A DNA stretch of 50,585 nucleotides, from IMG/VR virus record IMGVR_UViG_3300025695_000017, positions 1 through 50,585 of that record; one strand, 5' to 3'. Of the stretch, positions 22,721-50,585 are shown in pieces (the stretch's first letter is position 1; every line of letters starts with the position of its first letter). This stretch comes from a virus. Position numbers and translations under genes: made by a program. Under the pieces are notes generated by a model, which was given only the letters and a program-made list of their open reading frames with translations, made no database searches and was not told the DNA's origin.

Positions 22721-23539
22721 ATGAAAATAGGAATTATAGGACAGGGGTTTGTTGGTAATGCAGTTTATCAAAAGTTTAAAGAACATTATAATGTATTGAC
22801 TTACGATTTGGATGAAACTAAATGTAACTCCACATTTGAAGATGTATCTAAATGTGATTATGTATTTACCTGCTTACCCACTCCTATGAATTCTGATGGT
22901 AGTTGTAATACTAATATCGTAGAAGATGTAATCAAACAAATTGATGAGGTTGGTATAACCAAAGGGATTGTTGTTAAATCAACTATTACACCTGGCACTA
23001 CTCAAAGTTGGAATGATACATACAACACAAACATTGTATTCAACCCAGAGTTCTTAACCGAACGAAACGCGGTAAAGGATTACGAAAATCAGAATAGGAT
23101 TATATTAGGAGGACCAAGACCAACAACAACTTACCTTAAACGAATATTCTCAAATGTATTCCCAAAAGCACATATAGTAAAAACGGATTCAACTCATGCT
23201 GAGATGGTAAAGTATTTAACAAATACATTCTTAGCAACTAAAGTATCATTCGCTAATGAGATGTATCAGATTTGTGAGAAGTTGAATATAGATTATGATA
23301 AGGTAGTAGAATATTCAACCTTTGATGATAGGTTAGGTAAATCACATTGGAATGTACCAGGACCTGATGGTGATTTTGGATATGGTGGACATTGTTTTCC
23401 AAAGGATGTTAATGCACTAATTCATTTAGCTGATGAGTTGGGATTATATCCAACTATGTTAATGGCTACTAATCGTAAAAATGATGTAGTACGAAAAAAT
23501 AGGGATTGGGAAGGTATGAAAGGTAGAGCAGTTACTTAG
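22721..23539 (+). CDS. Nucleotide-sugar (UDP-glucose type) dehydrogenase, short form
   Basis: The 272-residue protein oxidises a nucleotide sugar to its uronic acid if the family function is retained. The N-terminal Rossmann motif is G7-Q-G-F-V-G12. Next come CLPTPMNSDGSCNT, VVKSTITPGTT and FNPEFLTERNAVKDY, all family hallmarks, then AEMVKYLTNTFLATKVSFAN. The catalytic Cys is C225 in GYGGHCFPKD. Typical enzymes have about 390-450 residues; this one ends after the central helical domain and lacks the C-terminal UDP-binding domain. No continuation is visible in another frame. Such short forms may act as dimers with altered specificity or on GDP/UDP sugars; the substrate is unknown. It starts two bases after the fusion nuclease. 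Confidence 0.88.
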   Translation: MKIGIIGQGFVGNAVYQKFKEHYNVLTYDLDETKCNSTFEDVSKCDYVFTCLPTPMNSDGSCNTNIVEDVIKQIDEVGITKGIVVKSTITPGTTQSWNDTYNTNIVFNPEFLTERNAVKDYENQNRIILGGPRPTTTYLKRIFSNVFPKAHIVKTDSTHAEMVKYLTNTFLATKVSFANEMYQICEKLNIDYDKVVEYSTFDDRLGKSHWNVPGPDGDFGYGGHCFPKDVNALIHLADELGLYPTMLMATNRKNDVVRKNRDWEGMKGRAVT

Positions 23540-36672: not shown

Positions 36673-37811
36673 TTTACAAAAAAATAAAACGAAATCAAAA
36701 TAACATTCTTAATATTAAAAATAGAGTTTCCATATCATATGTATATGGGCCTAAAGTAGAAATATTAGGAAATGTTGATGAAACTTATAGAGTAGAATTC
36801 ATTGATAAAGCAACCAACGTTATTCAGTTTGAAACTGAAATAAAAAACAATTGTTGGGCATCTTGTAATATCCGATACTTTGTGGATTGGAGAATCCGAG
36901 TTTGGAATGGTACTGAATTATTCCATGAAGAAGATTATAATGCAACCGATATGAGAGTATATGTTGCATTGGATTCGAAAGCATTGGGTGATACATTAGC
37001 ATGGTTTCCATATGTTGAGGAATTTGGTAAGAAACATAATTGTAAGATGGTAACATCTACATTCCATAACGAAATGCTAATCCAACAATATCCGAATATT
37101 GAATTTATAAACCCTGGTGAAATTGCAGAAAACTTATACGCTATGTATGGGTTGGGATTATTTTACAACGAAGATGGTTCGGTAAATTTACATAAAAACC
37201 GAAGAGACCCTAAGGGATTATCAATGCAGGAAATGGCTACTGATATCTTAGGATTGGAATTTGTAGAAGTAAAACCAAAGTTGGGTAAACGAAATGTTGA
37301 AAAGGATGATAAACTAATTACCATTGCAATTCACGGAACCGCTCAATCAAAGTATTGGAATAACCCAACTGGTTGGCAAGAAGTAGTAGATTGGTTAACG
37401 GGTAGGGGATATCGAATCAGATTACTATCCAAAGAACAAACTGGGTTTATGGGTAACTTTGAACCAACTGGTATTGAAAAACATCCATGGGGGCCTTTGG
37501 AGTTGGTTATGGATGAAATGGTTAAATCAAAAGCATTCATTGGTATTGGTAGTGGGTTGAGTTGGTTAAGCTGGGGATTGGGAACTAAAACAGTTCTCAT
37601 AAGTGGATTTTCATACGATTGGGCAGAGATGAGTGATTGTGTACGAATCAGTTCACCAAAAGATATATGTGGTGGTTGCTTCAATAGATTAAAATTAGAT
37701 GCTGGTGATTGGAATTGGTGTCCAGACCATAAAGGTACTAATAGGCAATTTGAGTGTACTAAATCTATCACTGGTGAGATGGTAATTAAAGAATTAGAAA
37801 AGTTTTTATAA
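36669..37811 (+). CDS. Autotransporter-type O-heptosyltransferase (BAHT/TibC-like, GT9-related)
   Basis: The 380-residue protein begins at GTG 36669, overlapping the previous TGA by 4 bases; an in-frame TTG at 36663 is less likely. The centre has DSKALGDTLAWFPYVEEF, the GT9/heptosyltransferase N-lobe motif, and TIAIHGTAQSKYWNNPTGWQ and AFIGIGSGLSWLSWGLG in the C-lobe. Four Cys near the C-terminus are arranged C-x2-C-x13-C-x11-C (334, 337, 351, 363). This resembles the iron-binding finger of the TibC family, which transfers heptose from ADP-heptose onto Ser of beta-helical surface proteins. The next two genes encode the two halves of ADP-heptose synthase, which supports the call. The acceptor is unknown. 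Confidence 0.85.
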   Translation: MIYKKIKRNQNNILNIKNRVSISYVYGPKVEILGNVDETYRVEFIDKATNVIQFETEIKNNCWASCNIRYFVDWRIRVWNGTELFHEEDYNATDMRVYVALDSKALGDTLAWFPYVEEFGKKHNCKMVTSTFHNEMLIQQYPNIEFINPGEIAENLYAMYGLGLFYNEDGSVNLHKNRRDPKGLSMQEMATDILGLEFVEVKPKLGKRNVEKDDKLITIAIHGTAQSKYWNNPTGWQEVVDWLTGRGYRIRLLSKEQTGFMGNFEPTGIEKHPWGPLELVMDEMVKSKAFIGIGSGLSWLSWGLGTKTVLISGFSYDWAEMSDCVRISSPKDICGGCFNRLKLDAGDWNWCPDHKGTNRQFECTKSITGEMVIKELEKFL

Positions 37812-38195
37812 ATGAAAGTTTGGATTAACGGATGTTTTGATGTTTTACATTATGGACATTTTCAATTAATTTCTCATGCTAAATCATTGGGTGGTGAGCT
37901 AAAAATTGGAATAGATTCCGATAAAAGAGTGAAAGAATCTAAAGGAGATAGTAGACCATTCCATACTGAGAATCAGCGAATATTCAACTTACTTCAAATT
38001 GAAGGTGTGAATAGTGTTGTAGTATTTGATTCTGATAAAGAACTATCTGATTTAATTAAAGATTACAAACCTGATATTTTTGTAATTGGTGATGAATATA
38101 AGGATAGGGGAATTATTGGTAGAAAGCATGCTAAACGAATTGAATACTTTCCAAAAGTGGAAGGATTCTCAACAACTGGATTATTAGATGAATAG
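37812..38195 (+). CDS. rfaE2: ADP-heptose synthase, adenylyltransferase half (HldE C-terminal domain-like)
   Basis: The 127-residue protein transfers AMP to heptose-1-phosphate to give ADP-heptose. The nucleotidyltransferase core shows NGCFDVLHYGH (HxGH at 13-16), SDKRVKESKGDSRP (K44-P49, a signature of the HldE/RfaE C-terminal domain), DIFVIGDEY and GFSTTGLL. The length is about that of the free-standing domain. TagD/GCT-type cytidylyltransferases share the HxGH motif, but the KGDSRP motif and the adjacent HldE-like kinase favour ADP-heptose. It begins right after the heptosyltransferase stop (TAA, ATG) and overlaps the kinase gene by 8 bases. Confidence 0.87.
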   Translation: MKVWINGCFDVLHYGHFQLISHAKSLGGELKIGIDSDKRVKESKGDSRPFHTENQRIFNLLQIEGVNSVVVFDSDKELSDLIKDYKPDIFVIGDEYKDRGIIGRKHAKRIEYFPKVEGFSTTGLLDE

Positions 38196-38940
38196 AGTAT
38201 TAGTTATAGGAGAAAGGTGTGATGATATCTTCATTTATGGTGATACTCCCCGTTTATCACCCGAAGGACCGGCACCAGTATTTATTCCAACGAGAGAAGT
38301 TTACAATGGTGGGATGGGTGAAAATGTGATGAATAATCTACTATCTTTAAAAATTGATGTAGATTTCGAACATCAGAAATCACCAATTACAAAGACAAGA
38401 CATATTCACGAATCATCGAATACCTTATTGTTAAGAATTGATGAAGATGGAAATACAGATAATATAGGTGATAGATTACCTAAAATAGATTTTTGGGAAT
38501 ATCAAATGGTAGTAATTTCAGATTACAACAAAGGTTTCCTATCTGAAGAAGATATTGCTTATATAGCATATAAACACCCAAACACAATTTGTGATACCAA
38601 AAAGAAGTTGGGTGATTGGTGTAAAGATTTACGATTCATAAAGCTTAATCGTACTGAGTTCAATAATAATAAAGAATTTATTCAAGAAAACGATTGGATT
38701 TTAGAAAAGTTGATAATTACATTAGATAAGGATGGATGTATGTACAATGGTACATCATATCCAACCGAACAAGTAGAGATTATGGATATCTCAGGAGCTG
38801 GTGATACATTCGTAGCGGGATTTGTGAAGATGTTCTTAGATACCGAAGATATTCCAAAATCAATACAATATGCTAATCGTTGTTCAGCGCAGGTTGTACA
38901 AAAACGAGGTGTAACAACAATAGATTACGAAAACTTATAA
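38188..38940 (+). CDS. rfaE1: Heptose-7-phosphate kinase half of HldE (PfkB family)
   Basis: The 250-residue protein phosphorylates heptose-7-phosphate at C1 in ADP-heptose synthesis. The N-terminal strand VLVIGERCDDIFIYG is followed by PRLSPEGPAPVF (21-32), a hallmark of HldE kinases, and GGMGENVMNNL. The C-terminal PfkB signature is DISGAGDTFVAGF, with G203-A-G-D206 (anion hole and catalytic base). At 250 residues it is shorter than E. coli HldE-N (about 318) by loss of part of the middle, but core motifs are intact. The start overlaps the adenylyltransferase by 8 bases (ATGAATAG), indicating translational coupling and matched expression. Confidence 0.88.
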   Translation: MNRVLVIGERCDDIFIYGDTPRLSPEGPAPVFIPTREVYNGGMGENVMNNLLSLKIDVDFEHQKSPITKTRHIHESSNTLLLRIDEDGNTDNIGDRLPKIDFWEYQMVVISDYNKGFLSEEDIAYIAYKHPNTICDTKKKLGDWCKDLRFIKLNRTEFNNNKEFIQENDWILEKLIITLDKDGCMYNGTSYPTEQVEIMDISGAGDTFVAGFVKMFLDTEDIPKSIQYANRCSAQVVQKRGVTTIDYENL

Positions 38941-39447: not shown

Positions 39448-41136
39448 ATGAACGAATTATCTCAATTTTTAGTAGAGAGTATATTAGGGGAAGCGGACAG
39501 TGTAGACAACAAAGTTGTAGTTTACTCTGGCCGCTTTCAACCGTTTCATAAGGGGCATTACGCAACATATTCTCACTTAGTAAAAAAGTTTGGAAAGGAA
39601 AATGTTTTTATCGGAACATCCAACAAAACCGATAATAAGAAATCACCTTTCAACTTTAAAGAGAAAAAGCAAATAATGACAACGATGTTTGGTGTTCCAT
39701 CAAACAAAATTGTTGAAGTTAAGAATCCATATGTACCAACTGAGGTACTAAAGAAATTCGATAAAGATACTACATCATTCATCACAGTTGTTGGTAAGAA
39801 AGATGCAAATAGATTAGGTGGTAAGTTCTTTACCCCTTACAAAGATAACTTAGATTTTGAAGGATATGAGGATAGGGGGTATGTTTATATAGCTCCCCAA
39901 CAATCCAATCCAATAAGTGGAACCGATGTTCGTATGGGATTACGAAAAGGTTCTGATGCGGATAAGAAAGAGTTCTTTACTAAAAAGGCTTATGGTAAGT
40001 TCAATCCAAAAATATTTAAATTCATAGCAGGTAAACTATCACAACTACCAGAAATAACTTCGGAAAATATTTGGATTCCAAAACACATATTAGAAAATTG
40101 GATAGTTGATAATACTGATTTAATAAATGAAGTTACTACTACAATGGGTAGAGATTCAGTAGATGATGGACCAAACTATATCTATCCAAATTTCAATACA
40201 TTTAATAAGGTTTCTCAAAAAAGAGCAGAGGAAATTGGATACACTGTTTTATCACAAATTATGAGTGATGAACTTACTGATATTGATGACCATCCAATAT
40301 ATCCAAAAGGACCTATAAAAGCAGTAACCCCATTTCCTGCGGGTGTTGCTGGTAAAACCACATCTACTAACCAAAAAGATTTCTATGGTTCTGAGGCTTA
40401 TAATAAGTGGTTTAAACATATAGCTAAGATAGTTGGTATAGTTGGATATTCTTTCGTTGATTACATTGATTTAAATATCGATAAAACTCAATCACTAAGA
40501 GATTTAGATAGTGAGGGTGATGACGTTGGAAATACTTTAAAAGAAGATATCAACCTTCCAGTAAATGTTGGAGATACTATCCTAACAGGTAGATTTAAAA
40601 ACAAAAAGACAGTTGTTAAAACCATTGGTAAGGATGAGTATGGGATGCCAACTATCAATGGTAGAAAGGTTGTAAACTTTCGAATTGTAAGTGAAGGTGT
40701 AAAAGTTCAACTCAACGAAATTCCAATGGGAGACCTTCAAAAGATTGATACATTTGCTGATAAGCAATTAAAACCAGTGGATGTGGTTCTAACTGGTAAA
40801 CATTTCTTCGATAGATTAAATGACCCAAGAAACGGAAAAGAAGTAACAAACGCTGAGTTGATTGGTTTCTTTAAAAGATTGGGTAAAAAGAAAAAAGAAT
40901 TTGTAAACTTCCTTAATCAATATAATCAGATTGTAGCAAAGGATAATAGAACTAATATTAATATTCCATTTATGAAACAAGCGAATAAAGTAATCGCTAA
41001 AACCATAATGAGAAAAGATGACTTTAAAACATCAGACCCGGAATATAAATTTGAAAAATTAGAAAAGGAAAAGTTGAAATACAATGAGCCATACGCTTTA
41101 AGTGGTGGTATCTCTGAATCAACTAATAAAAAATAA
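39448..41136 (+). CDS. Prohead-targeted polyprotein with N-terminal NMN-adenylyltransferase-like domain
   Basis: The 562-residue protein starts MNELSQFLVESILGEADS, similar to T4 capsid-targeting peptides and containing LVE (8-10) and LGE (13-15), which fit the prohead protease rule [L/I]xE. Residues ~20-205 are a nucleotidyltransferase (VVYSGRFQPFHKGHYATY with HxGH; NPISGTDVRMGL, the ISSTxxR-type motif), as in NMN adenylyltransferase. A further I-N-E site at 226-228 separates it from a middle region, an L-N-E site at 422-424 from a C-terminal domain (HFFDRLNDPRNGKEVTNAEL), and an L-K-E at 364-366 is internal. The middle contains VGDTILTGRFKNKKTVVK. The processing model is inferred; the NTase motifs are clear. 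Confidence 0.78.
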   Translation: MNELSQFLVESILGEADSVDNKVVVYSGRFQPFHKGHYATYSHLVKKFGKENVFIGTSNKTDNKKSPFNFKEKKQIMTTMFGVPSNKIVEVKNPYVPTEVLKKFDKDTTSFITVVGKKDANRLGGKFFTPYKDNLDFEGYEDRGYVYIAPQQSNPISGTDVRMGLRKGSDADKKEFFTKKAYGKFNPKIFKFIAGKLSQLPEITSENIWIPKHILENWIVDNTDLINEVTTTMGRDSVDDGPNYIYPNFNTFNKVSQKRAEEIGYTVLSQIMSDELTDIDDHPIYPKGPIKAVTPFPAGVAGKTTSTNQKDFYGSEAYNKWFKHIAKIVGIVGYSFVDYIDLNIDKTQSLRDLDSEGDDVGNTLKEDINLPVNVGDTILTGRFKNKKTVVKTIGKDEYGMPTINGRKVVNFRIVSEGVKVQLNEIPMGDLQKIDTFADKQLKPVDVVLTGKHFFDRLNDPRNGKEVTNAELIGFFKRLGKKKKEFVNFLNQYNQIVAKDNRTNINIPFMKQANKVIAKTIMRKDDFKTSDPEYKFEKLEKEKLKYNEPYALSGGISESTNKK

Positions 41137-41146
41137 TAGGATTATT

Positions 41147-41629
41147 ATGATTAAGTTAACCGATTTATTATCAGAAATTGGAGATGGTTCTTCTAAACCA
41201 TACAAATGGAAAGCTCTTTCAAAGAGTAAGATGAAAATAGGAAAAGGACATTCTTACTTCTATAAATTCACCACAGACAATGGAATAGAGTATGATGCTG
41301 AATTCTACTACTCGGTTATTGATGGTAAAAAAGGAAAATTACTTTATCTATTTGAATTTGCACCATCGGATGCTTTTGATGGCGGTGATGATGGTAACCC
41401 ACTGGTTACCGGTGAAGGTGCACCACTTCGTATAATGTCTACTATCGTTCAGATTCTAAAAGACTTTATCGGTAAAAACCCAACAGCTGCCATTGAATAC
41501 TCAGCAGGAAAGAATTTTAGCGGAGATACAAGACGTGCTAAACTTTATATGGCTTATATAAAGAGGTTACTACCTTCTAATTATAAAGTTAGACCCAAGG
41601 GAGATGATGTTCTTATTCAACCTAAATAA
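41147..41629 (+). CDS. Hypothetical prohead-targeted protein
   Basis: The 160-residue protein starts at ATG 41147, ten bases after the previous stop; the longer frame opening at 41102 overlaps the upstream gene and is rejected. The N-terminus MIKLTDLLSEIGDG resembles the targeting peptides of its neighbours, with L-S-E at 8-10. The body is alpha/beta: KIGKGHSYFYKFTTDNGIEY, AEFYYSVIDG, and APLRIMSTIVQILKDFIG, then TRRAKLYMAYIKRLLP. No family is recognised. It has no promoter of its own and probably shares the transcript with 39448 and 41649, hence a likely capsid-interior protein. Confidence 0.75.
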   Translation: MIKLTDLLSEIGDGSSKPYKWKALSKSKMKIGKGHSYFYKFTTDNGIEYDAEFYYSVIDGKKGKLLYLFEFAPSDAFDGGDDGNPLVTGEGAPLRIMSTIVQILKDFIGKNPTAAIEYSAGKNFSGDTRRAKLYMAYIKRLLPSNYKVRPKGDDVLIQPK

Positions 41630-41648
41630 TTAACAAATAAAACCTATT

Positions 41649-42893
41649 ATGATAAGATTAAAAAAATTACTAAGTGAAGTTCTTCTAAATGAAGGTGGTG
41701 CATATGGGCATATGAATCACCCATTCGATACCGAAATCAATTTAACTTTTGGTCAACTTAAAGATATTGTAAATAAAGCATTAGAAGGAAACTTAGATTT
41801 AGCAAGAGAAAAAACCGATGGACAGGCATTAGCTGTAAGTTGGAGAGATGGTAGATTAGTTGCTGCGAGAAACAAAGGACACTTAAAGAACAAAGGTGAA
41901 AACGCTTTGGATATAAAAGGTGTAGCTACTAAGTTTGCTGGTAGAGGTGAATTAGAAAAGGCATATAACTTTGCTATGAATGATTTATCAAAAGCAATCA
42001 AATCACTTTCTGAAAAACAAAGAGATAAAATCTTTAAAGGTGGTGCATGTTTTATGAACTTAGAAGTAATATACCCAACTTCAGTAAATGTAATACCTTA
42101 TGGACAAGCACTATTGGTATTTCATGGTACTATGGAATTTAATGAAGATGGTGTAGCAATTGGTGAAAATCAAAATGCGGCTAAGATACTTGCTGGAATG
42201 ATTAAACAAGTAAATCAAGATGTACAATCAGCATATACAATATCAGGTCCTCCAATTAATCAATTACCTAAGAGTAAAGATTTAACTTCTCTGAAGGGTA
42301 AATACAATTCTAAAATATCAAAATTACAATCTAAATACAAATTAAAAGATACTGATGGAATTGCTGATTATCATCAAGCCTTTTGGATGGATTTCGTAAC
42401 TAAAAAATCACCAACAAAATTAGATAATAGAACTCTAATGGGATTGGTAAAAAGATGGGCATTCTATGATAAGAGTTTCCGTTTAGACAAGAAGAATTTT
42501 AGTGATGAGAAAACTTTAGAATGGGCAAAGGGAATTGATAAGAATGACCATGCTAAGATTGCTAAAGATAACATCAGACCATTTGAAGATATCTTCTTAG
42601 GTGTAGGTGCAGATATTCTATCTTTTATGAGTTCAGTACTTGCAGCTAACCCTGATAAAGCAGTTAGGGATATGAAGAAGAGATTGGATAAAACTATCAA
42701 AGATGTTCAAAAGAGTGGCGATGAAAAGAAAATCAACAAACTTAAATTGGAACTACAAAGATTGAACGCAATCGGTGGTAAAGATAAGATTGTTCCTAAT
42801 GAGGGTATTGTATTTGTATACAATGGAAAGACTTTCAAACTGACTGGAACCTTCGCTCCTCTTAATCAGATATTGGGATTATTTTACGAATAG
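41649..42893 (+). CDS. DNA/RNA ligase-fold nucleotidyltransferase, probably prohead-targeted
   Basis: The 414-residue protein has the core motifs of covalent nucleotidyltransferases (ATP- or NAD-dependent ligases and capping enzymes). Motif I is K55-T-D-G58 in AREKTDGQALAV, with nearby R69 and R74. A motif III-like Glu occurs in FMNLEVIYP (E139). Motif IV is E385-G-I-V388, and motif V is FKLTG with K397. Spacing between III and IV is longer than usual because of a helical insertion (about 220-370, LKLELQRLNAIGG). The N-terminus MIRLKKLLSEVLLNEGG has L-S-E and L-N-E sites like its neighbours. Nick sealing or RNA repair is inferred; substrate unknown. No OB-fold domain is evident after motif V. 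Confidence 0.75.
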   Translation: MIRLKKLLSEVLLNEGGAYGHMNHPFDTEINLTFGQLKDIVNKALEGNLDLAREKTDGQALAVSWRDGRLVAARNKGHLKNKGENALDIKGVATKFAGRGELEKAYNFAMNDLSKAIKSLSEKQRDKIFKGGACFMNLEVIYPTSVNVIPYGQALLVFHGTMEFNEDGVAIGENQNAAKILAGMIKQVNQDVQSAYTISGPPINQLPKSKDLTSLKGKYNSKISKLQSKYKLKDTDGIADYHQAFWMDFVTKKSPTKLDNRTLMGLVKRWAFYDKSFRLDKKNFSDEKTLEWAKGIDKNDHAKIAKDNIRPFEDIFLGVGADILSFMSSVLAANPDKAVRDMKKRLDKTIKDVQKSGDEKKINKLKLELQRLNAIGGKDKIVPNEGIVFVYNGKTFKLTGTFAPLNQILGLFYE

Positions 42894-42904
42894 TATAAAT
42901 TACA

Positions 42905-42913
42905 ATACTTATA
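42905..42913 (+). promoter_or_regulatory. Variant late promoter motif ATACTTATA
   Basis: Same T to C variant as at 34121. It lies 26 nt before the ATG at 42940, followed by an alternating TA tract. Confidence 0.5.
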
Positions 42914-42939
42914 TATATATATGAATATATAAGATAGTT

Positions 42940-43611
42940 ATGGCAGATAAAAAATTTGAAAGAAAGTTCATGCACCCAACTCGTAGAAAGTTGGTTGATA
43001 TGGTTCATACTGGTGAGTATCAAAAAGATACTAAAATTTCTCTATCCGATGTAAAAGAAGAAACCAAACGTAATGTTGGTGATAAGTGGGAAGAAGATGG
43101 AGTAGTTTGGGAAGAAAAATCATATGGTAGAGTAAAGCAATCAAAGGCATCATCTGAACTTTCAAAGGTAAGAAAGTATTTAGAGAAAACATCGGAATGT
43201 AAATCAGATACTTGTAAAAAGAATAAGTACGGACCAACCGATAAGACTCTAATCAAAAAATCAGGATATTGTTCGGTGTGTTTAGCTGAGAAAGAACAAA
43301 TCATCAAAACAGATGGATTGTGGGAAGCTTATAATGAATATAAAGTTTATTCTAATATGGCTGTATATGGTACTGAGGTATTATATAAATGGACTGAGGC
43401 ATTAGGTGAAGTCAATAACATACATACTTTTGTAAATGAAGATGGTTCAGTTGAAAAGTGGGTACAAAATGTAGATACCGATTTTTTAAGAGAACAATTG
43501 GAAGGTGATATCGAAAAGGGTAAGAAAGAATTATTAGAGGTTATTGAAAAGAGAAACGCAGCATATGAACTATTAAAAGATAAAAACTACGAATTAGTAC
43601 AACCTTTATAA
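42940..43611 (+). CDS. Hypothetical zinc-binding phage protein
   Basis: The 223-residue protein begins with a basic segment (KKFERKFMHPTRRKLVDMVH). In the middle there is a four-Cys site: C-x4-C in SECKSDTCKKNK, then C-x2-C in GYCSVCLAEKE, about 30 residues later, consistent with a zinc ribbon. The C-terminal third is helical and charged (EGDIEKGKKELLEVIEKRNA). It follows a late-type motif and precedes the membrane protein pair. I recall similar proteins in T4-like marine phages but no assigned function; DNA binding or a packaging accessory role is a guess. Confidence 0.7.
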   Translation: MADKKFERKFMHPTRRKLVDMVHTGEYQKDTKISLSDVKEETKRNVGDKWEEDGVVWEEKSYGRVKQSKASSELSKVRKYLEKTSECKSDTCKKNKYGPTDKTLIKKSGYCSVCLAEKEQIIKTDGLWEAYNEYKVYSNMAVYGTEVLYKWTEALGEVNNIHTFVNEDGSVEKWVQNVDTDFLREQLEGDIEKGKKELLEVIEKRNAAYELLKDKNYELVQPL

Positions 43612-43612
43612 G

Positions 43613-43999
43613 ATGAATAGTAATACAAAAATATATTTAATATTGATTGTTATCTTAGGATTTGTAGGATACAATCTAATGGTAATGCATGATATCCAAA
43701 CGGATGTTGCTGCATTTGATGAAAAGATTGAAATGATTCAAAGTGATATTGATTCAATCGCAATAGCCAACGATGAGTTGGATTCCAAAATAGAATCGTT
43801 ACATTCAGAAATAGAACTAATTGATAGTGATATCAACAAAGTACAAAATAACATCACTACAATAAAAAACAAAACGAATGAAAAAGTCAATAATGTTGAT
43901 GTTCTTACTTTCGATGAGCTTATCCAGTTTTTCACAAACCGTTACCAAAAGGGACTCGGTGGTGAAACTAAAAGTTCCGATAGTAAGGATGGTAATTAA
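43613..43999 (+). CDS. N-terminally anchored coiled-coil membrane protein (inner-membrane spanin-like)
   Basis: The 128-residue protein has one N-terminal transmembrane helix (about 7-24, YLILIVILGFVGYNLM), with the remainder predicted outside the cytoplasm as a coiled coil (MIQSDIDSIAIANDELDSKI and further). The topology matches an inner-membrane spanin. Its 3' end overlaps the next gene by 122 nt in a different frame, as Rz/Rz1 genes do. It starts one base after the upstream stop. Function is inferred from topology and overlap; no sequence family is recognised. Confidence 0.65.
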   Translation: MNSNTKIYLILIVILGFVGYNLMVMHDIQTDVAAFDEKIEMIQSDIDSIAIANDELDSKIESLHSEIELIDSDINKVQNNITTIKNKTNEKVNNVDVLTFDELIQFFTNRYQKGLGGETKSSDSKDGN

Positions 44000-44291
44000 A
44001 GATTTAGTTACCTTTGATGGTTTAAAATTAGAACTGATAGAAACTAAAGACTTACTAAGATTATCACATGATAAACTTGTGTTAAAGGATAGTGTTATTA
44101 CTAATTTAAATGGTAAGGTTCTTAATTTAGAAGGTATTATTCAAAAAAAGGATGAACAATTCGGTTTAGAGAGTGAAAAATCTAAACAATTACTAAAAGA
44201 ACTAAAAAGGCAAAAACGAAATACCTTCTTATGGAAATTGGGAACAATTGGTGGTGTGGTACTTAGTTTGTTCTTTGCCGCTGGTGGATAA
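43878..44291 (+). CDS. Signal-peptide coiled-coil protein with C-terminal membrane segment (spanin partner candidate)
   Basis: The 137-residue protein starts within the preceding gene, in another frame. Residues 1-~20 form a signal peptide (MKKSIMLMFLLSMSLSSFSQ, typical of Bacteroidetes), without the Cys of a lipobox. The middle is a coiled coil (LVLKDSVITNLNGKVLNLEG, KSKQLLKELKRQKRN). The C-terminus has a hydrophobic helix (about 119-137, LGTIGGVVLSLFFAAGG). An outer-membrane spanin would normally be a lipoprotein, and a single-protein spanin has a C-terminal membrane helix, so this protein mixes both. The pair probably acts in lysis, but this is inference from arrangement. Confidence 0.65.
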   Translation: MKKSIMLMFLLSMSLSSFSQTVTKRDSVVKLKVPIVRMVIKDLVTFDGLKLELIETKDLLRLSHDKLVLKDSVITNLNGKVLNLEGIIQKKDEQFGLESEKSKQLLKELKRQKRNTFLWKLGTIGGVVLSLFFAAGG

Positions 44292-44294
44292 TTT

Positions 44295-45878
44295 ATGGCT
44301 AAACAAAGACAATCTTTAAAAGCAATTATAGCTCAGGAGTATCAGAAATGTGCTTCTGACCCAATATACTTTATGAAGAAGTATTGTATGATTCAACATC
44401 CGGTGAGAGGAAAAATTCCTTTTCACCTTTTTCCGTTTCAAGAGGAAACATTAGTTGACTTTAAAGACCATCGTTACAATATCATTCTTAAATCCAGACA
44501 AACTGGTATCTCAACACTAACCGCAGGATTCTCTTTGTGGAAAATGTTATTCAATCAAGATTACAATGTATTGGTAATTGCAACTAAGCAAGAGGTAGCC
44601 AAAAACTTGGTAACAAAAGTAAGGGTAATGAATCAGTACTTACCATCTTGGTTAAAGTTGGAAACTGTTGAAGATAACAAACTATCATTACGATATGCAA
44701 ATGGTTCTCAAATTAAAGCAACTTCTGCTGCTGGTGATGCTGGTCGTTCGGAAGCACTATCTTTATTGGTGTTTGATGAGGCAGCATTTATCGATAAGAT
44801 TGAAGAGATATGGGTATCAGCTCAATCTACATTATCAACGGGGGGTTCGGCAATTATCCTTTCTACTCCAAATGGTGTGGGTAACTTTTTCCACAAAACT
44901 TGGGTGGGTTCTGAAGAAGGTTCAAATGGATTCAACAATATCAGATTACATTGGAGTGTTCACCCTGAAAGAGACCAAGATTGGAGAGATGAACAAGAAA
45001 CACTATTAGGACCTAAAGGAGCAGCACAAGAATGTGATTGTGATTTCGTTTCTTCTGGGGATAGTGTGATAGACCCACAACTTTTACAATTCTACAAAGA
45101 TACCTATGTTCAAGACCCAATCGAAAAAGGTGGGTTTGATGGAAATCTTTGGAAGTGGGCATATCCAGATTATAATAAATCATATATAGTTGTTGCCGAT
45201 GTTGCGAGGGGTGATTCATCGGATTATTCCGCATGCCATGTAATTGATATAGAGGCATCTGAGCAAGTTGCTGAGTATAAGGGTAAATTAGATACAAAAG
45301 ATTTTGGAAACTTCTTAGTATCTCTTTCTACGGATTACAACAACGCATTGTTGGTAATTGAAAACGCAAACATTGGTTGGGCTTGTATTCAACAAGTAAT
45401 TGATAGAAACTATTCTAACCTATATTATACCAACAAAGATTTGAAGTATGTGGATAGTGAGAATCAATTCTCAAACAAATACCGAGCGCAAGATAGAAAT
45501 CAAGTAGCCGGTTTCTCAACTACCTCTCGAACTAGACCTTTGATTATTTCAAAGTTGGAAGAGTATATCAGAGATAAATCAATCACAATCCGTTCAGTAC
45601 GAACTATCGATGAATTGTTTACATTTATTTGGAATAATGGTAGAGCAGAAGCGATGAGAGGTTATAATGATGATTTAACTATGAGTTTAGCTATTTCACT
45701 TTGGGTAAGGGATACTGCTCTTAGATTAAGACAAGAAGGTGTAGATTTAACCAAAAGAGCTATTGATGGTATTTCTACTTATACTTATAATGGGGTATAT
45801 GGTGGAACTAACAACGATGATAATCCTTGGCAAATGGAATTCGGAGATGGATTCGAAGATTTGACAAAATGGTTATAA
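44295..45878 (+). CDS. 17: Terminase large subunit, T4 gp17-like
   Basis: The 527-residue protein is the packaging motor ATPase and headful nuclease. The ATPase has a Walker A variant SRQTGIST (67-74) and Walker B LLVFDEAAF (D161-E162), followed by the coupling motif IILSTPNG (about 187-194). The RNase H-like nuclease begins VVADVARGDSSDYSA (D302 and D310 as metal ligands), with a later acidic YNDDLTMSLA segment that holds the third Asp. T4 gp17 is 610 residues; the shorter N-terminus is usual outside coliphages. It lies just before the portal region, as expected. No small terminase gp16 is recognised in the window. Confidence 0.95.
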   Translation: MAKQRQSLKAIIAQEYQKCASDPIYFMKKYCMIQHPVRGKIPFHLFPFQEETLVDFKDHRYNIILKSRQTGISTLTAGFSLWKMLFNQDYNVLVIATKQEVAKNLVTKVRVMNQYLPSWLKLETVEDNKLSLRYANGSQIKATSAAGDAGRSEALSLLVFDEAAFIDKIEEIWVSAQSTLSTGGSAIILSTPNGVGNFFHKTWVGSEEGSNGFNNIRLHWSVHPERDQDWRDEQETLLGPKGAAQECDCDFVSSGDSVIDPQLLQFYKDTYVQDPIEKGGFDGNLWKWAYPDYNKSYIVVADVARGDSSDYSACHVIDIEASEQVAEYKGKLDTKDFGNFLVSLSTDYNNALLVIENANIGWACIQQVIDRNYSNLYYTNKDLKYVDSENQFSNKYRAQDRNQVAGFSTTSRTRPLIISKLEEYIRDKSITIRSVRTIDELFTFIWNNGRAEAMRGYNDDLTMSLAISLWVRDTALRLRQEGVDLTKRAIDGISTYTYNGVYGGTNNDDNPWQMEFGDGFEDLTKWL

Positions 45879-45890
45879 ATTATCTTTGTT

Positions 45891-45899
45891 ATATTTATA
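45891..45899 (+). promoter_or_regulatory. Putative phage late promoter motif ATATTTATA
   Basis: It lies in the 49-nt gap after terminase, 28 nt before the ATG at 45928; context GTTATATTTATATAGTAT matches the copy at 39412. Confidence 0.65.
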
Positions 45900-45927
45900 T
45901 AGTATAAGTTTAATTATAGGATTTTAA

Positions 45928-46335
45928 ATGGAGAATTACTCAGAGGAACTTTATAACGAATTCAAATTAGGATTGGATGAAAACATCGAAGAATATGATG
46001 TTGAAAACTGTGAAGATTTGAAAGAGTTTATCCACTTTCTAAAAAATATGAAAGAGGAACTTACTGAAGCTGAATATCAAGGTAGAAAGGTAAAACTTAA
46101 TAAACCAATGGATGGTGATGTAAAGAAGTTCAAAGTGTATGTAAAAAATCCAAAGGGAAATGTTGTAAAAGTAAACTTTGGACATGGTGGTTCATCTGCT
46201 AAAAAAGCTGGTGAAAAAACTATGAGGATTAAGAAAGATAATCCAGAAAGAAAAAAAGCATTTAGAGCAAGACACAATTGTGATTCACCTGGCCCAAGAC
46301 ACAAAGCTAGGTATTGGAGTTGTAAAGCTTGGTAA
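45928..46335 (+). CDS. Conserved phage protein with predicted prohead protease site
   Basis: The 135-residue protein has an acidic helical N-terminus (1-44) ending with KEELTE, an L-T-E site (45-47) of the prohead protease type. The remainder is a basic domain starting AEYQGRKVKLNKP, with VKKFKVYVKNPKGNVVKV and a conserved end AFRARHNCDSPGPRHKARYW. I recall this end from many T4-like marine phages, where it often occurs within larger proteins. Cleavage would release an ~88-residue, strongly basic peptide that could bind packaged DNA. It sits between terminase and portal. The cleavage and DNA-binding ideas are inference. Confidence 0.8.
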   Translation: MENYSEELYNEFKLGLDENIEEYDVENCEDLKEFIHFLKNMKEELTEAEYQGRKVKLNKPMDGDVKKFKVYVKNPKGNVVKVNFGHGGSSAKKAGEKTMRIKKDNPERKKAFRARHNCDSPGPRHKARYWSCKAW

Positions 46336-46339
46336 TAAA

Positions 46340-46371
46340 TTAGGATAATTCAATAATTTTTCGTATCTTAG
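46340..46371 (+). promoter_or_regulatory. Weak host-type promoter variant, TTAG-N20-TATCTTAG
   Basis: TTAG at 46340-46343 and TATCTTAG at 46364-46371 keep the 20-nt spacing of the two perfect copies, but both boxes carry TTAG instead of TTTG. It lies 26 nt before the portal ATG. The spacing supports it; the changed bases weaken it. Confidence 0.45.
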
Positions 46372-46397
46372 ATAGATTATAAGATAAAGTAAATAGA

Positions 46398-48155
46398 ATG
46401 GCAGAAGAACAAAATAGTTCATTTTTTAATCGATTAACGAAACTCTTTTCTACCCAAGCAATCGTAACGGTTGATAAGGAAGGAAAAAGAAAAGTTGTTG
46501 ATGTAGATGATAGACAGCAAGGTGGTACTAACTTAATGAATTTAAGGGATAGGTACACCAAACTACAAAGGTCTTTTTATGGGGACCAGATGGCAGCTCA
46601 ATCAATGGCTTATCATCAAGTTCGTAGAGAATTATTCAGAGATTACGATGCTATGGATAATGACCCAATCATCTCATCGGCATTAGATATTTACGCAGAT
46701 GAGTGTACTCTTAAAAACGAATTCGGTGAAGTAGTACAAATCAAAACACAAAACGAAAAAGTAAAGGAAGTATTAGAAAACCTTTTCTATGATATTCTTA
46801 ACATAGAGTTCAACCTTTGGTCTTGGACTCGTAATATGGTTAAGTATGGTGATTTCTTCTTAGTACAAGAAATCCAAGAAGGAGTGGGTATTATAAATGT
46901 AAAACCACTTCCAGTTTATGAAACTGAAAGATTGGAGAATACCGACCCAAACAACGCAAACTATGTTAAGTTTAATGTAAACCATGACCCAAATGGGAAA
47001 GGTGAATATGAGAACTATGAAGTAGTACACTTTAGATTATTATCAGATACCAACTTCTTACCTTATGGAAAGGCAATGATTGAAAATGGTAGAAGAATTT
47101 GGAAGCAAGTTTCTTTGATGGAAGATGCTATGTTGATTCATAGAATTATGAGAGCACCTGATAAGAGAGTTTTCAAAATTGATATTGGTAATATCCCACC
47201 ACAAGAAGTTGATAATTATATGCAGAAGATTATCAACAAAATGAAGAAAACTCCATTTGTAGATAAAAAGACTGGTGATTACAACTTAAAGTATAATATC
47301 CAAAACCTAACTGAAGATTTCTTCTTACCTGTTAGGGGTGGTGATAGTGGTACTGAAATTGATTCATTGGGTGGATTAGAGTACACCGCAATTGATGATA
47401 TTGATTACTTAAAGAATAAACTATTTGCAGCACTTAAAATTCCAAAAGCATATTTGGGATATGATGAGAATGTAAATGGTAAAGCAACTCTTGCTGCAGA
47501 GGATGTGAGATTTGCAAGAACAATCGAGAGAATTCAAAGAACTCTTATATCGGAACTTACTAAGATTGCAGTAACACATTTAGCAGCACAAGGTTTCGAA
47601 GGTAAGGAAATGGTTGATTTTGAATTGGATTTGGTAAACCCATCTACAATCTATGAGCAAGAGAAAGTAAACCTTTGGAGTGAAAAAGTAAGATTAGTTT
47701 CTGATATTACTCAGTTGAATATGATTTCAAAGGAATGGGCTTATAAGAATATCTTTAATATGAGTACTGATGAAATTGATTATCAGAAAACTCAAATGAT
47801 TAATGACTTGAAAGATAGATTCAGATATCGTTCTATTGAAGATGAAGGTAATGACCCAGCAATGGAAAGTGAACCAACTGATGTAGAAGATGAGTTGGAA
47901 GAAATTAAATCATCTTTAAAGGATAAAGGTGGTAGACCAAGGGAGGGAAATACTTATGGTAAGGATAAACACCCATATGGTAGAGACCCGTTAGGAGCAA
48001 AGGAGAATCACAAAGCATTGAAAAAAACCGAAGGTAAAGTTACTAAAAAGGCAGGTAAATTTGCTAAGGAATATGTTAATGGAGTATCCGCAAAACGAAA
48101 GTTAATGAGTGAAGGCGGAGACTTTTTAGATGATTCAAATTTGATTGATGAATAA
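46398..48155 (+). CDS. 20: Portal vertex protein, T4 gp20-like
   Basis: The 585-residue protein forms the dodecameric ring through which DNA enters the head. T4 gp20-type motifs are visible: YDAMDNDPIISSALDIYADE near residue 82, LEYTAIDDIDYLKNKLFAAL near 335, then IPKAYLGYDENVNGKATLAA, followed by EDVRFARTIERIQRTLISEL. The length is near T4 gp20 (524), with a longer, charged C-terminal tail. It is preceded by a variant host-type promoter and followed by prohead genes. The order terminase, portal, prohead core, protease is the canonical T4 order. Confidence 0.95.
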   Translation: MAEEQNSSFFNRLTKLFSTQAIVTVDKEGKRKVVDVDDRQQGGTNLMNLRDRYTKLQRSFYGDQMAAQSMAYHQVRRELFRDYDAMDNDPIISSALDIYADECTLKNEFGEVVQIKTQNEKVKEVLENLFYDILNIEFNLWSWTRNMVKYGDFFLVQEIQEGVGIINVKPLPVYETERLENTDPNNANYVKFNVNHDPNGKGEYENYEVVHFRLLSDTNFLPYGKAMIENGRRIWKQVSLMEDAMLIHRIMRAPDKRVFKIDIGNIPPQEVDNYMQKIINKMKKTPFVDKKTGDYNLKYNIQNLTEDFFLPVRGGDSGTEIDSLGGLEYTAIDDIDYLKNKLFAALKIPKAYLGYDENVNGKATLAAEDVRFARTIERIQRTLISELTKIAVTHLAAQGFEGKEMVDFELDLVNPSTIYEQEKVNLWSEKVRLVSDITQLNMISKEWAYKNIFNMSTDEIDYQKTQMINDLKDRFRYRSIEDEGNDPAMESEPTDVEDELEEIKSSLKDKGGRPREGNTYGKDKHPYGRDPLGAKENHKALKKTEGKVTKKAGKFAKEYVNGVSAKRKLMSEGGDFLDDSNLIDE

Positions 48156-48180
48156 AAATTTAGGAAATCAAAAATAACTT

Positions 48181-48189
48181 ATATTTATA
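48181..48189 (+). promoter_or_regulatory. Putative phage late promoter motif ATATTTATA
   Basis: It lies in the 84-nt gap after the portal gene, 50 nt before the ATG at 48240, the longest leader among the copies. Confidence 0.6.
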
Positions 48190-48239
48190 TACAACGTAAA
48201 GTATCGTATATTGATATATTATTATAGGATAAAAATATA

Positions 48240-49109
48240 ATGAAGAGGGTAAAACATTCAAAATTTAAGAATACTGGGATTCTATTCGAACTTCTCGTAA
48301 GACAAATTACGTTAGAAGTTCTTAATGGTGATACCACAGAGAAAGCAAAGAAAATTGTGGCTGAGTTTTTCAGTCCAAAAACCGAGCTTAATAAGGAGTT
48401 AAGATTGTACGAACTTTTAACTAAGGAAAAGTACAATTCAGAATCAAGAGCTGATAAGTTTATTGATACTGTAAATGAAGCTCATAGTAGAATCAATCAG
48501 AAACAACTTCAATCGGAGAAGTATAATCTTATCAAAAAGATTAACGAATCATTCAATATGGATGAATTCTTATCTTCACCAATTACCAACTATAAGGTAT
48601 TGGCATCTATCTATAAGGTTTTTGAATCTAAGAGATATGAAAACTACGATGTAAAGGATGTATTTAACTCAAAGATTACCCTAATTGAGAACATAACATC
48701 AAAACCTGCTGCGATTACCGAATCTAAAAAAGATAAAGTAATTGAGGCTTACAAACAACAAGATAAAGATTTACGATTACTTACTTATAAAACATTAGTT
48801 GAGACCTTTAACAAAAAGTATTCAAACTTAAACGAAGCTCAAAAGAGGTTGTTGAAAGAATACATCAATAACTTAACTAACACAACGGGATTCAAATCAT
48901 ATATTGAAAACGAAATCCCTTCTATCGTAAAAGAACTAAAATCTATCGAATCTCAGATTGGTGATAAAGTAACTAAAATTAAACTTAGTGAAACTATCTC
49001 TCAGTTAGCTAGTACAAAGATTGGAAGAAAAGTTTCAGATAATCAAGTTTCATCACTAATGATGTCTTACGAACTAATCAAAGAATTAAAGAGTAAAGTT
49101 AATGAGTAA
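48240..49109 (+). CDS. Prohead core/scaffold-like helical protein
   Basis: The 289-residue protein is highly charged and almost all helical (for example NKELRLYELLTKEKYNSESR, and SNLNEAQKRLLKEYINNL). It starts MKRVKHSKFKNTGILFELLV. An I-T-E site occurs in the middle (AAITESKKDK), which could be cut by the prohead protease. The position between portal and protease corresponds to T4 genes 67/68 (prohead core). It overlaps the next start by 8 bases. Function by position and composition only. Confidence 0.7.
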   Translation: MKRVKHSKFKNTGILFELLVRQITLEVLNGDTTEKAKKIVAEFFSPKTELNKELRLYELLTKEKYNSESRADKFIDTVNEAHSRINQKQLQSEKYNLIKKINESFNMDEFLSSPITNYKVLASIYKVFESKRYENYDVKDVFNSKITLIENITSKPAAITESKKDKVIEAYKQQDKDLRLLTYKTLVETFNKKYSNLNEAQKRLLKEYINNLTNTTGFKSYIENEIPSIVKELKSIESQIGDKVTKIKLSETISQLASTKIGRKVSDNQVSSLMMSYELIKELKSKVNE

Positions 49110-49548
49110 TCTAAGAAAGCTAATTGAGGATTTAATAGAAGAAATCCAAAATGAAGAAATGGATATTGAGGAAGTAACCACCACTGGTGATATAGCTGGA
49201 TACAATACTCCTAACGCTTTTAAGTCTACGGATGGTACTGATGAAGATGATGAATCGGATGATGATTATATTGATGCCATTAACAAAGCAACTGGTTACA
49301 AAAGAGTTGATGAAAATCGTTGGCATGAATTAAGGAAATCCGAAGGTACTCCTAAGCAAAAAATCGGAGTTGGTATTAGCAGTATCAACAAACAACTTTC
49401 TGAAATGGAAACGTTTCTAAAGTGGTATGGTAAGATTAAGAAAGAGAGTGGTATGAAAACTGAGGACCAATGGAAACGAACACAAAAGCATCTCTATAAA
49501 ATTAGAGAGAGGTTAAATAGAATTTCAACATCAATATCAGAATTATAA
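49102..49548 (+). CDS. Prohead core-like protein with N-terminal processing sites
   Basis: The 148-residue protein begins MSNLRKLIEDLIEEIQNEE with L-I-E at 7-9 and 11-13. A further I-E-E precedes VTTTGDIAGYNTPNAF; the same E|VTTT junction occurs in the polyprotein at 39448 (LINEVTTTM). An acidic stretch follows (TDEDDESDDDYIDAI), then a helical basic half (GKIKKESGMKTEDQWKRTQ). The gene overlaps the upstream gene by 8 bases. It fits a small prohead core or internal protein processed by the gp21-like protease. Confidence 0.72.
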   Translation: MSNLRKLIEDLIEEIQNEEMDIEEVTTTGDIAGYNTPNAFKSTDGTDEDDESDDDYIDAINKATGYKRVDENRWHELRKSEGTPKQKIGVGISSINKQLSEMETFLKWYGKIKKESGMKTEDQWKRTQKHLYKIRERLNRISTSISEL

Positions 49549-49564
49549 AATATAATTGGCAATT

Positions 49565-50473
49565 ATGAATATTACCAGAGAAACTATCAAAGAAACTATA
49601 AAAACAGTAATGGCTGAGGAAGCTGATTACAAAGCATTTTTCAAAAAGGCATTAGAAAAAGCTGGAAAATCTATCCCATCTATGAGTGATGAAGAAAAGA
49701 AAGAGTTCTTCAACAAAATTGATGCGGCTTGGAACGCTAAGGGTGAAAAGAATGAAGCTCTTAAAGGAGACCAACATGAATTGGATGTTGATGGTGATGG
49801 TGATATTGAAGCTGATGATTTAGCAGATTTAAGAGCTGGTAAGAAGATAAACAAAGAATCAATAGTAACTGAAGCTGATAACTTCGCTGGATGGATTGCA
49901 ATTGACCATAGAGGTAAAAAAATTGAAATCAAAAAAGGTGAAGCTAAAGACCTTTACAACGCAAAACTATTGGCAATTAAAAAATTAAAAGTTCCTAAAT
50001 CAAAAGTAGGAATGTTAGCAATCAAACCAGCCGTAAATGAATCAGCTGGATGTAATTGTGGATGTGGGGGGTGTTCAACGCCTGTAACTGAGGGTAGAGC
50101 ATTTATCAACGCTGCTAAAAAAGCAAAAGAAGAGGGTAAAACTGAATTTGAGTTTAATGGTAAAACATATCCAGTAACTTTAAAGGAATCAATAGTAACT
50201 GAAGCACGTTTAGGAAAAGTTTCTTTATTGAGAAGTGTTGAAAGTGGTGATAGTTCGCATGTTGAGGGAGTAAAGATTTCTCCATCATTGGCATTTGAAT
50301 TACGAATGTTTTTAGAAAGACCAATGTTAGCTAAAACCAGAACTGGTATCGCTATTAATAACGCACAAATGAAAGATGCAATTGGTATGTTGGCTAAAGT
50401 TGGTGTACATAAGAGATTATCTTCTGGGGTGAAGAAAGAGTTTGCAGATTTATTAAAGAAATATAACAAATAA
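49565..50473 (+). CDS. Prohead core polyprotein with EF-hand-like loop and repeated processing sites
   Basis: The 302-residue protein starts at ATG 49565 (MNITRETIKETIKTVMAEEA); an in-frame TTG at 49556 is rejected. A Ca-binding loop typical of EF-hands or dockerins is present (LDVDGDGDIEADDL, about 78-91). Two identical ESIVTEA junctions separate domains, and PVTEGRAF and NESAGC mark further boundaries. Between them is a Cys-rich patch CNCGCGGC and a module NAAKKAKEEGKTEFEFNGKT known to me from T4-like phages. The C-terminal piece is helical (FADLLKKYNK). The gene directly precedes the protease gene, consistent with a scaffold or internal-protein precursor. Confidence 0.72.
   Translation: MNITRETIKETIKTVMAEEADYKAFFKKALEKAGKSIPSMSDEEKKEFFNKIDAAWNAKGEKNEALKGDQHELDVDGDGDIEADDLADLRAGKKINKESIVTEADNFAGWIAIDHRGKKIEIKKGEAKDLYNAKLLAIKKLKVPKSKVGMLAIKPAVNESAGCNCGCGGCSTPVTEGRAFINAAKKAKEEGKTEFEFNGKTYPVTLKESIVTEARLGKVSLLRSVESGDSSHVEGVKISPSLAFELRMFLERPMLAKTRTGIAINNAQMKDAIGMLAKVGVHKRLSSGVKKEFADLLKKYNK
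49856..49875 (+). repeat. 20-bp direct repeat, copy 1 of 2 (encodes ESIVTEA junction)
   Basis: A 20-bp sequence, identical at 50186-50205, encodes the protein junction ESIVTEA. It marks a putative protease site between two domains of the prohead polyprotein. Confidence 0.75.
50186..50205 (+). repeat. 20-bp direct repeat, copy 2 of 2 (encodes ESIVTEA junction)
   Basis: Identical at the DNA level to 49856-49875, 330 bp downstream and in the same frame. Confidence 0.75.
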
Positions 50474-50480
50474 GGATACT

Positions 50481-50585
50481 ATGAAAGGTCTATTGATTGA
50501 AACAAATTTGTTTGAAGGAAGGGTGAATGAGGATTCATCTGGTAGAACCTTAGTTAAAGGTGTCCTTCAACGTTCTGGTGCAGAA
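50481..50585 (+). CDS. 21: Prohead core protease gp21-like, N-terminal fragment (truncated by window)
   Basis: Only the first 35 residues are visible: MKGLLIETNLFEGRVNEDSS, then GRTLVKGVLQRSGAE. The second part matches the N-terminal strand of T4-type prohead proteases, which typically read KGxLQRAGxxNxNGR. The first 16 residues have L-I-E and L-F-E sites, consistent with autocleavage of the zymogen. The position after portal and prohead core genes is canonical. The catalytic Ser/His lie beyond the window. Confidence 0.8.
   Translation, partial: MKGLLIETNLFEGRVNEDSSGRTLVKGVLQRSGAE

Follow-up and report, generated by a model that had tools for sequence, protein, structure and literature searches.

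A tagged gene block beside the head genes

We analysed the whole of IMG/VR record IMGVR_UViG_3300025695_000017 (the window, 50,585 bases), which comes from a myovirus of the T4-like kind whose portal protein is of the gp20 type. By portal sequence, the nearest isolates are Microcystis phage Mel-JY01, at 50.7%, and Flavobacterium phage immuto, at 47.4%, whose annotations both name a large terminase, a prohead protease and a major capsid protein in the same order. The window contains separate open reading frames (ORFs) for a nicotinamide mononucleotide (NMN) adenylyltransferase (NMNAT)-like protein and a ligase-like nucleotidyltransferase, with a third ORF, encoding a 160-amino-acid (aa) protein, between them (Table 1). 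Each of the three begins with a tag, a propeptide of 15, 10 or 15 residues, respectively, that ends in L/I-X-E before the domain. In relatives, the same domains are commonly joined in one modular chain, with similar sites at the seams between modules. Comparison among these sequences establishes the tags, the seams, the exchange of modules and a rule common to these sites and the capsid protein, and we consider it likely that the proteins are head-targeted cargo that, as a modular polyprotein in relatives, would be cut by a gp21-type protease and probably injected.

The T4 prohead protease, gp21, cleaves after L/I-X-E, and packaging of the internal protein IPIII needs no more than its first 10 residues (PMC9026906). 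A sequence-only reading of the window had listed six [L/I]xE motifs, and all six are in place, five of them N-terminal (MNELSQFLVESILGE/A, MIKLTDLLSE/I, MIRLKKLLSE/VLLNE/G, MSNLRKLIEDLIEE and MKGLLIETNLFE/G) and one internal (EELTE/AE). One had been misassigned: LLIETNLFEG, listed with the others, lies among the dozen N-terminal residues of the prohead protease itself, which read identically in complete relatives, and T4 gp21 likewise has such a site near its own N-terminus (PMC9026906). The list was also incomplete, as the NMNAT ORF and a 302-aa ORF hold further inner sites at module seams.

Within the window alone, 7 of the 11 ORFs of the head block (from 39448) have an [LI]xE motif that ends at residues 6-22, versus 8 of the 31 earlier ORFs (Fisher p=0.031); for the reversed motif, the control, the counts are 6/11 and 10/31 (p=0.17). 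This excess is weak and insufficient alone, so six motifs chosen by eye amount to little proof. The motif in those 8 ORFs outside the head block, by chance or otherwise, favours an alternative in which late, unpackaged enzymes simply have E- and L-rich ends through chance or composition. The relatives, however, raise the pattern convincingly far beyond chance.

The cargo domains occur both fused and free

Viral-contig scans with the portal, ligase and NMNAT proteins yielded loci L004-L196; the first two scans comprised the best 80 loci each, and the counts for relatives cover best matches. At least 80 ORFs (60 distinct), 639-1980 aa in length, contain both the NMNAT and the ligase domains, with NMNAT N-terminal and ligase C-terminal in the examples; the smallest fused form, NMNAT plus ligase in 639 aa, is that of Mel-JY01. 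The modules between the two ends vary by contig and include CCA-adding, HD, GNAT, Zeta-toxin, ParB-like and Zn-ribbon types. Fourteen Pfam families were found in 39 polyproteins, among them CTP_transf_like (38), DUF5661 (15), HypA-like zinc ribbon (9), PolyA_pol (4), HD (4), Zeta_toxin (2) and GNAT (2), and PHROGs add ParB-like, Lar-like and metallo-protease matches, one each. The sequence-only reading had overlooked this form, in which a single modular polyprotein, with such sites where its modules join, corresponds to the cargo ORFs of the window.

Among the ligase ORFs in the matches listed, 15 are free, all tagged MIRLxKxLxEVLLxE or close to it, and 78 are fused; in 5 of the 78, the tag plus its Met is retained inside the chain. 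Several modules are separate tagged ORFs in immuto. The same domains occur free with a tag and fused with a seam, and the free tags end at the same boundary. The cargo ends 2.4-4.3 kb ahead of the portal start in 122 loci. An assembly error behind the split ORFs of the window is unlikely, because the split recurs in contig L084, whose ligase is 100% identical, and because other relatives are split with a 4-base stop/start overlap.

Most seams follow the prohead protease rule

Most module joints in the relatives' chains carry an [L/I/V/M]-x-E site. At the ligase seam, 59 distinct 14-mers have E at P1 in every case and L or I at P3 in 58 (X in the other one), with P2 free. The sequences upstream of the ligase form 29 classes with little mutual likeness, and P1 is E and P3 is L or I in all 29; the codons at this seam vary, indicating that it is not a conserved DNA junction. 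For eight module types together, the [LIVM]xE rule holds in 71 of the 74 boundary classes (ligase 24/24, IPM 9/9, basic 8/8, GDT 13/14, Zn-ribbon 4/4, GRAF 6/6, LGKV 3/3 and CGCGG 4/6). Module anchors were picked by eye from post-seam sequence and the offset was fitted beforehand for GDT and Zn-ribbon; when these two are left out, 54 of 56 classes fit. Seven control anchors placed inside conserved regions gave no usable context (one), no match (five) or 2/29 (one).

A motif-independent test used the insertion/deletion junctions among 46 polyproteins. [LI]xE was present in 134 of 174 junction contexts, versus a shuffled mean of 66, and in 16 of 30 independent clusters versus 9.3 expected, a value reached in 0 of 500 shuffles. 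Composition-keeping shuffles and independent clusters were adopted because the reversed motif had also been raised in an earlier junction test against random positions, which was dropped. Taken together, the 29/29 invariance at the ligase seam with varied codons, the shuffles, the negative anchors and the enrichment in S-CREM2 virions with null control motifs (below) make chance or composition a very improbable explanation.

The sequence-only reading had also proposed comparing the sites with the cleavage site of the capsid protein, a comparison made here in relatives. The capsid proteins of the clade (12 ORFs, 9 distinct sequences) all have NQA[KR]Q and, directly after it near residue 60, a site that ends in E and has L, I or V at P3. 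T4 gp23 is cut at a like place. As judged from these sequences, the capsid maturation site and the cargo seams of the clade follow one rule. Of the 66 portal loci that extend 3.2 kb or more downstream, 65 have a prohead protease ORF; among those that hold cargo as well, the figure is 52 of 53. Pfam S77 scored above its cut-off in the Mel-JY01, immuto, S-CREM2, LR756508 and LR756500 records and was not found in the metagenome-assembled genome (MAG) of L204; a PF03420 search of the window record gave no match because only 35 protease residues are present.

The tags and seams could alternatively act as core docking elements or flexible linkers that stay uncut. Targeting by the T4 tag is indeed separable from processing, as D at position 10 blocks processing yet allows targeting (PMC9026906). 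Here, however, invariance is confined to the two positions that define the protease rule, P1 and P3, with the rest variable, and the capsid maturation site follows that rule too; we therefore regard uncut linkers as improbable. Another alternative is that the chain is of the polyvalent type and is cut by an embedded peptidase rather than the head protease, given that polyvalent proteins use embedded metallopeptidases (PMC5512222), that one of the 39 polyproteins has the PHROG metallo-protease match and that a HELVH-type pattern occurs in 3 distinct contexts. Against it, there is no peptidase among the 14 Pfam families found in the 39 polyproteins, and the seams obey the same rule as the S77 protease and the capsid protein, which makes cutting by an embedded peptidase hardly credible.

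The scaffold proteins of the clade (L001, L002, L045, L072, L081 and L082) end in a common R[MFW].[KQ]LAG[IL], and in an immuto cargo-type ORF (L002 7055-7519) a similar stretch, RMQKLAGIITE, is found close to the N-terminus, immediately ahead of a site. This common peptide may perhaps be a core-binding element.

Tag-like N-termini are enriched among S-CREM2 virion proteins

A virion protein table from mass spectrometry is available for the T4-like cyanophage S-CREM2 (PMC10665884). We compared it with N-termini from two genome stretches (99 of 175 kb), within which 26 of the 52 detected proteins are complete; 15 were left after 7 tail/neck proteins, the portal, protease, scaffold and capsid had been set aside. 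[LI]xE ends at residues 6-22 in 9 of these 15 versus 21 of 127 undetected ORFs (p=0.0006), and with [LIV] the counts are 10/15 versus 27/127 (p=0.0006), while the reversed motif and D and K control motifs gave no excess in this comparison. The N-termini of detected proteins include those of a SAM hydrolase (MKDFDSFLEE), a kinase (VKRFDAFLTE), an NMNAT (MKNFSSFLTE) and a small protein (MKDLHSFLTE). This NMNAT, gp154, belongs to PHROG_395, the family of the window NMNAT, and the S-CREM2 authors remark that cytidyltransferases are often found in cyanophage virions (PMC10665884). In addition, the Cas9-like gp12 (L200 7704-10313), also in virions, has a tag-like FASFMAE/A ending at residue 25.

The sequence comparisons, and the published mass spectrometry of virions of a different T4-like phage, give good support to the proposal of a prohead-targeted, protease-processed protein set, once the protease's own motif is removed from it. 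The sequence-only reading was right on the motifs; packaging and processing have a good likelihood, and a toolkit delivered to the host is plausible.

Tags are portable

The 160-aa family occurs in 14 contexts, one of which lies within a chain of 894 aa. The N-termini are of several kinds, and all 14 have P1 occupied by E and P3 by I, L or M directly before the domain. Tandem 160-aa paralogues, each with its own tag, are found five in a row in L214 (5968-8599) and three in L209 (3556-5773), arrays much like those of internal proteins in T4 relatives.

The basic protein had been noted as a basic peptide, and its composition agrees: an acidic 47-aa propeptide of net charge -12 precedes an 88-aa body of net +18. 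Its PHROG_7595 match covers residues 42-135 only, i.e. the body, and E precedes the body (AEYQGR) in all 51 distinct contexts found in relatives. The 302-aa ORF is a second modular chain, which ranges from 131 to 526 aa among the relatives shown and there contains other modules.

The tag type extends to the huge phage LR756500, which encodes a ligase with N-terminus MKFLKSYEEFLNE and other ORFs of the same tag type. The LR756500 tag pattern, which was derived from the first examples found there, matches 9 of 113 N-termini versus 6 of 565 internal stretches (~119 of 462 kb). Three adjacent ORFs of this phage (L203 35183-38494), of 176, 203 and 338 aa, have the identical start MKYILEYEEFLLE and are probable further huge-phage cargo. 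The tags of LR756500 and S-CREM2 closely resemble the T4 tag.

Predicted activities of the cargo

The NMNAT-like assignment, already made from the sequence alone, is supported by Pfam CTP_transf_like (39.5 bits, cut-off 21), by PHROG_395 and by HxGH and ISxTxxR motifs (Table 1). Synthesis of NAD from NMN and ATP is a prediction, as related nucleotidyltransferases use other substrates. The same ORF contains two further modules. The one beginning DINLPVNVGDTIL also occurs as a free tagged ORF and elsewhere in relatives' chains, and the HFFDRL (IPM) module is a separate ORF in immuto and Melnitz phages. The immuto form (L002 8568-9326) has a weak Pfam REGB_T4 match (17.2 bits, below the cut-off of 27), so a packaged RegB-like endoribonuclease is possible, as a lead only. 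A structure model of the HFFDRL module was too poor to use (predicted local distance difference test score, pLDDT, 54).

For the ligase-like protein, the K, D and G of motif I (KxDG) are invariant in 33 sequences. Its structure model (pLDDT 82) placed RNA ligases at the top of a weak structural list (best Z 5.1), and in the structural alignments domain residue K40 is in register with K92 (8uci, P. pacificus), K99 (5tt6, T4 Rnl1), K35 (2hvr, T4 Rnl2) and K170 (Naegleria). By the titles of the structure entries, K92, K99 and K170 are residues mutated in them; K35 is the corresponding lysine of T4 Rnl2. Foldseek with the ligase model gave no match at E<=0.001, so of the structural results we lean only on the lysine register. 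Motif I and this register support a covalent nucleotidyltransferase of ligase-like type, with weak fold scores; the ligase fold named by the sequence-only reading is to that extent a supported candidate. A ligase profile searched against PDB sequences returned no ligase, and its weak matches, mostly to ribosomal protein eS6, were taken as chance. A cellular origin of the ligase was likewise rejected: scanning genome contigs yielded 2 loci from a single Pelagibacteraceae MAG, and by their genes these look like phage contigs.

The ligase-like protein together with the CCA-adding and HD modules of relatives suggests an RNA repair theme, and the predicted NAD-making enzyme suggests NAD upkeep. RNA repair and NAD upkeep are both named as phage counter-measures (PMC9503650), and it is plausible that the cargo would serve early repair of cleaved tRNA and NAD upkeep against host defences.

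A model for cargo loading and release

We propose that short N-terminal tags would bring the cargo proteins into the prohead core, where the gp21-type (S77) protease, whose gene begins at 50481, would cut after E in [L/I/V/M]-x-E. The cut would free the cargo from tag and core, leaving it in the head with the DNA, with which it would probably enter the host. In most relatives the cargo appears to be made as a polyprotein, with NMNAT first, the ligase-like domain last, exchangeable modules between and, for most seams, at least one site, which would let the same protease cut the chain into single enzymes; the window would represent the split form, with its three ORFs bearing their own tags. Cleavage, packaging, injection and function are thus predictions from sequence. 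Beyond this, we lean toward a true phage polyprotein strategy as in RNA viruses, in which a fast-changing chain of host-acting enzymes would be loaded by one tag, cut in the prohead by the capsid-maturation protease and injected as a kit for RNA repair and NAD upkeep, with fusion and fission of genes shifting units freely between the chain and single tagged proteins.

The packaged and cut proteins might instead serve the head itself, in core building or DNA condensation, rather than act on the host. The cargo genes adjoin those for portal, protease and scaffold, some cargo is basic or highly charged, and IPIII of T4 takes part in head morphogenesis (PMC9026906). On the other hand, enzyme motifs are conserved, and CCA-adding enzyme, GNAT, HD and Zeta-toxin kinase modules differ between phages, a variability more in keeping with an arms race than with a structural component. 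A purely head-internal role is, in our judgement, unlikely.

Several observations weigh against head-targeted, protease-processed cargo, besides the counts within the window and the Foldseek result given above. Three of the 74 boundary classes do not fit the rule, and 14 of the 30 junction clusters have no [LI]xE within 8 residues. The reversed motif was also raised over all junction contexts (109/174 versus 66), partly because sites occur in pairs; at the cluster level it was hardly raised (13/30, reached by 36 of 500 shuffles). Motif matches also lie inside folded domains, such as LSE/KQR and IGE/NQ in the ligase, so accessibility must matter. The NMNAT of L141 has no tag, with an in-frame stop upstream. 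Finally, the S-CREM2 authors allow for contamination (PMC10665884), and S-CREM2 is a cyanophage of another clade.

Other genes of the window

The features of the head block are collected in Table 1. Ahead of it, four consecutive genes (34495-38940) resemble a sugar-decoration set: 725-aa glycosyltransferase/methyltransferase-like and 382-aa heptosyltransferase-like ORFs, a heptose-phosphate adenylyltransferase-like ORF (PHROG_7878, E 1.3e-34) and a PfkB kinase (Pfam). Two further ORFs were named by eye, one sugar-nucleotide-dehydrogenase-like (22721-23539) and one of 2971 aa (23797-32712) that is probably a giant tail-fibre protein.

Table 1. Head-block features of the window and their coordinates
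Feature	Coordinates	Strand	Sites, motifs and basis
NMNAT-like cargo ORF, 562 aa	39448..41136	+	tag MNELSQFLVESILGE at 39448-39492; HxGH at 39529-39558; ISGTDVR at 39913-39933; Pfam CTP_transf_like, PHROG_395, alignment
50-aa module within NMNAT ORF	40546..40695	+	DINLPVNVGDTIL...NFRIVSE; LKE just before
HFFDRL (IPM) module within NMNAT ORF, ~111 aa	40720..41052	+	IPMGDLQKID...HFFDRLNDPRN; QLNE just before
160-aa cargo protein	41147..41629	+	tag MIKLTDLLSE at 41147-41176; relatives with other tags, same boundary
Ligase-like nucleotidyltransferase, 414 aa	41649..42893	+	tag MIRLKKLLSEVLLNE at 41649-41693; motif I EKTDGQ at 41808-41825
223-aa conserved protein, function not assigned	42940..43611	+	no tag
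Terminase large subunit	44295..45878	+	no tag; name from same-place genes of Mel-JY01 and immuto
Basic DNA-binding-like protein	45928..46335	+	propeptide 45928-46068; site EELTE/AE at 46054-46068; body 46069-46332; PHROG_7595
Portal protein, gp20 type	46398..48155	+	Pfam Portal_T4, E 2.8e-73
289-aa conserved head-cluster protein, function not assigned	48240..49109	+	N-terminus conserved, not tag-like
148-aa protein	49102..49548	+	tag-like N-terminus MSNLRKLIEDLIEE at 49102-49143
302-aa protein, second modular chain	49565..50473	+	three inner sites: ESIVTE/ADN at 49856-49873; PVTE/GRAF at 50081-50092; ESIVTE/ARLG at 50186-50203
Prohead protease (S77 type), first 35 residues, incomplete at window end	50481..50585	+	MKGLLIETNLFE/G at 50481-50516

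Comparison with known systems

The cargo resembles IPI-III and Alt of T4 in having a short N-terminal tag cut, as predicted here, after L/I-X-E by an S77 prohead protease, the propeptides of such T4-type proteins being about 10-19 residues long; internal T4 cargo is packaged and injected (PMC9026906). T4 cargo consists of single small proteins plus Alt, however, whereas here there are larger enzymes, which in relatives form a chain of many units. S-CREM2 gp154 is similar in belonging to PHROG_395, in being present in virions and in its N-terminus, MKNFSSFLTE/A; it differs in being 286 aa long without a ligase fusion, and a targeting tag is not mentioned in the available text of the S-CREM2 study (PMC10665884). 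A likeness in processing is found in phages of the SPN3US/phiKZ type, whose ejected head proteins are matured after E by the S77-type gp245 (PMC10052503). Of the 14 sites mapped there, however, 13 serve to take off N-terminal propeptides and the other a C-terminal propeptide of the protease itself, and the accessible part of that account describes no separation of enzyme units (PMC10052503).

Polyvalent proteins (Iyer et al. 2017, PMC5512222) likewise carry many unlike host-acting domains per chain and are predicted to be injected, and ParB-like, GNAT, peptidase and kinase-type domains recur in both. As in polyvalent proteins, unlike domains in one chain lie beside head and packaging genes in the relatives, the window having the split form. 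The release step differs: polyvalent proteins use embedded metallopeptidases (PMC5512222), whereas the sites here are those of a separate capsid-maturation protease. Since Pfam finds no embedded peptidase in the 39 chains that could release the units, and PHROGs a single metallo-protease match, the cargo chain would work like a polyvalent protein, yet we do not file it as one. The portion of PMC5512222 available does not mention prohead-protease seams for polyvalent proteins, the phrase occurring once, in the reference list, and a search that excluded preprints and most subscription journals found no published description of a polyprotein with such seams. What appears to be new here is a polyprotein whose joints carry protease sites, and whose units pass freely between the fused state and single tagged proteins. 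A portable tag ending in [LIVM]xE before a domain could allow head-packaged, probably injected proteins to be listed on the basis of genome sequence only, for uncultured and huge phages as well. The cargo thereby links T4 capsid targeting and polyvalent effectors, which the literature, as far as the available parts of it go, has kept apart, and it raises the question of whether a capsid-maturation protease could double as a processor of effector polyproteins.

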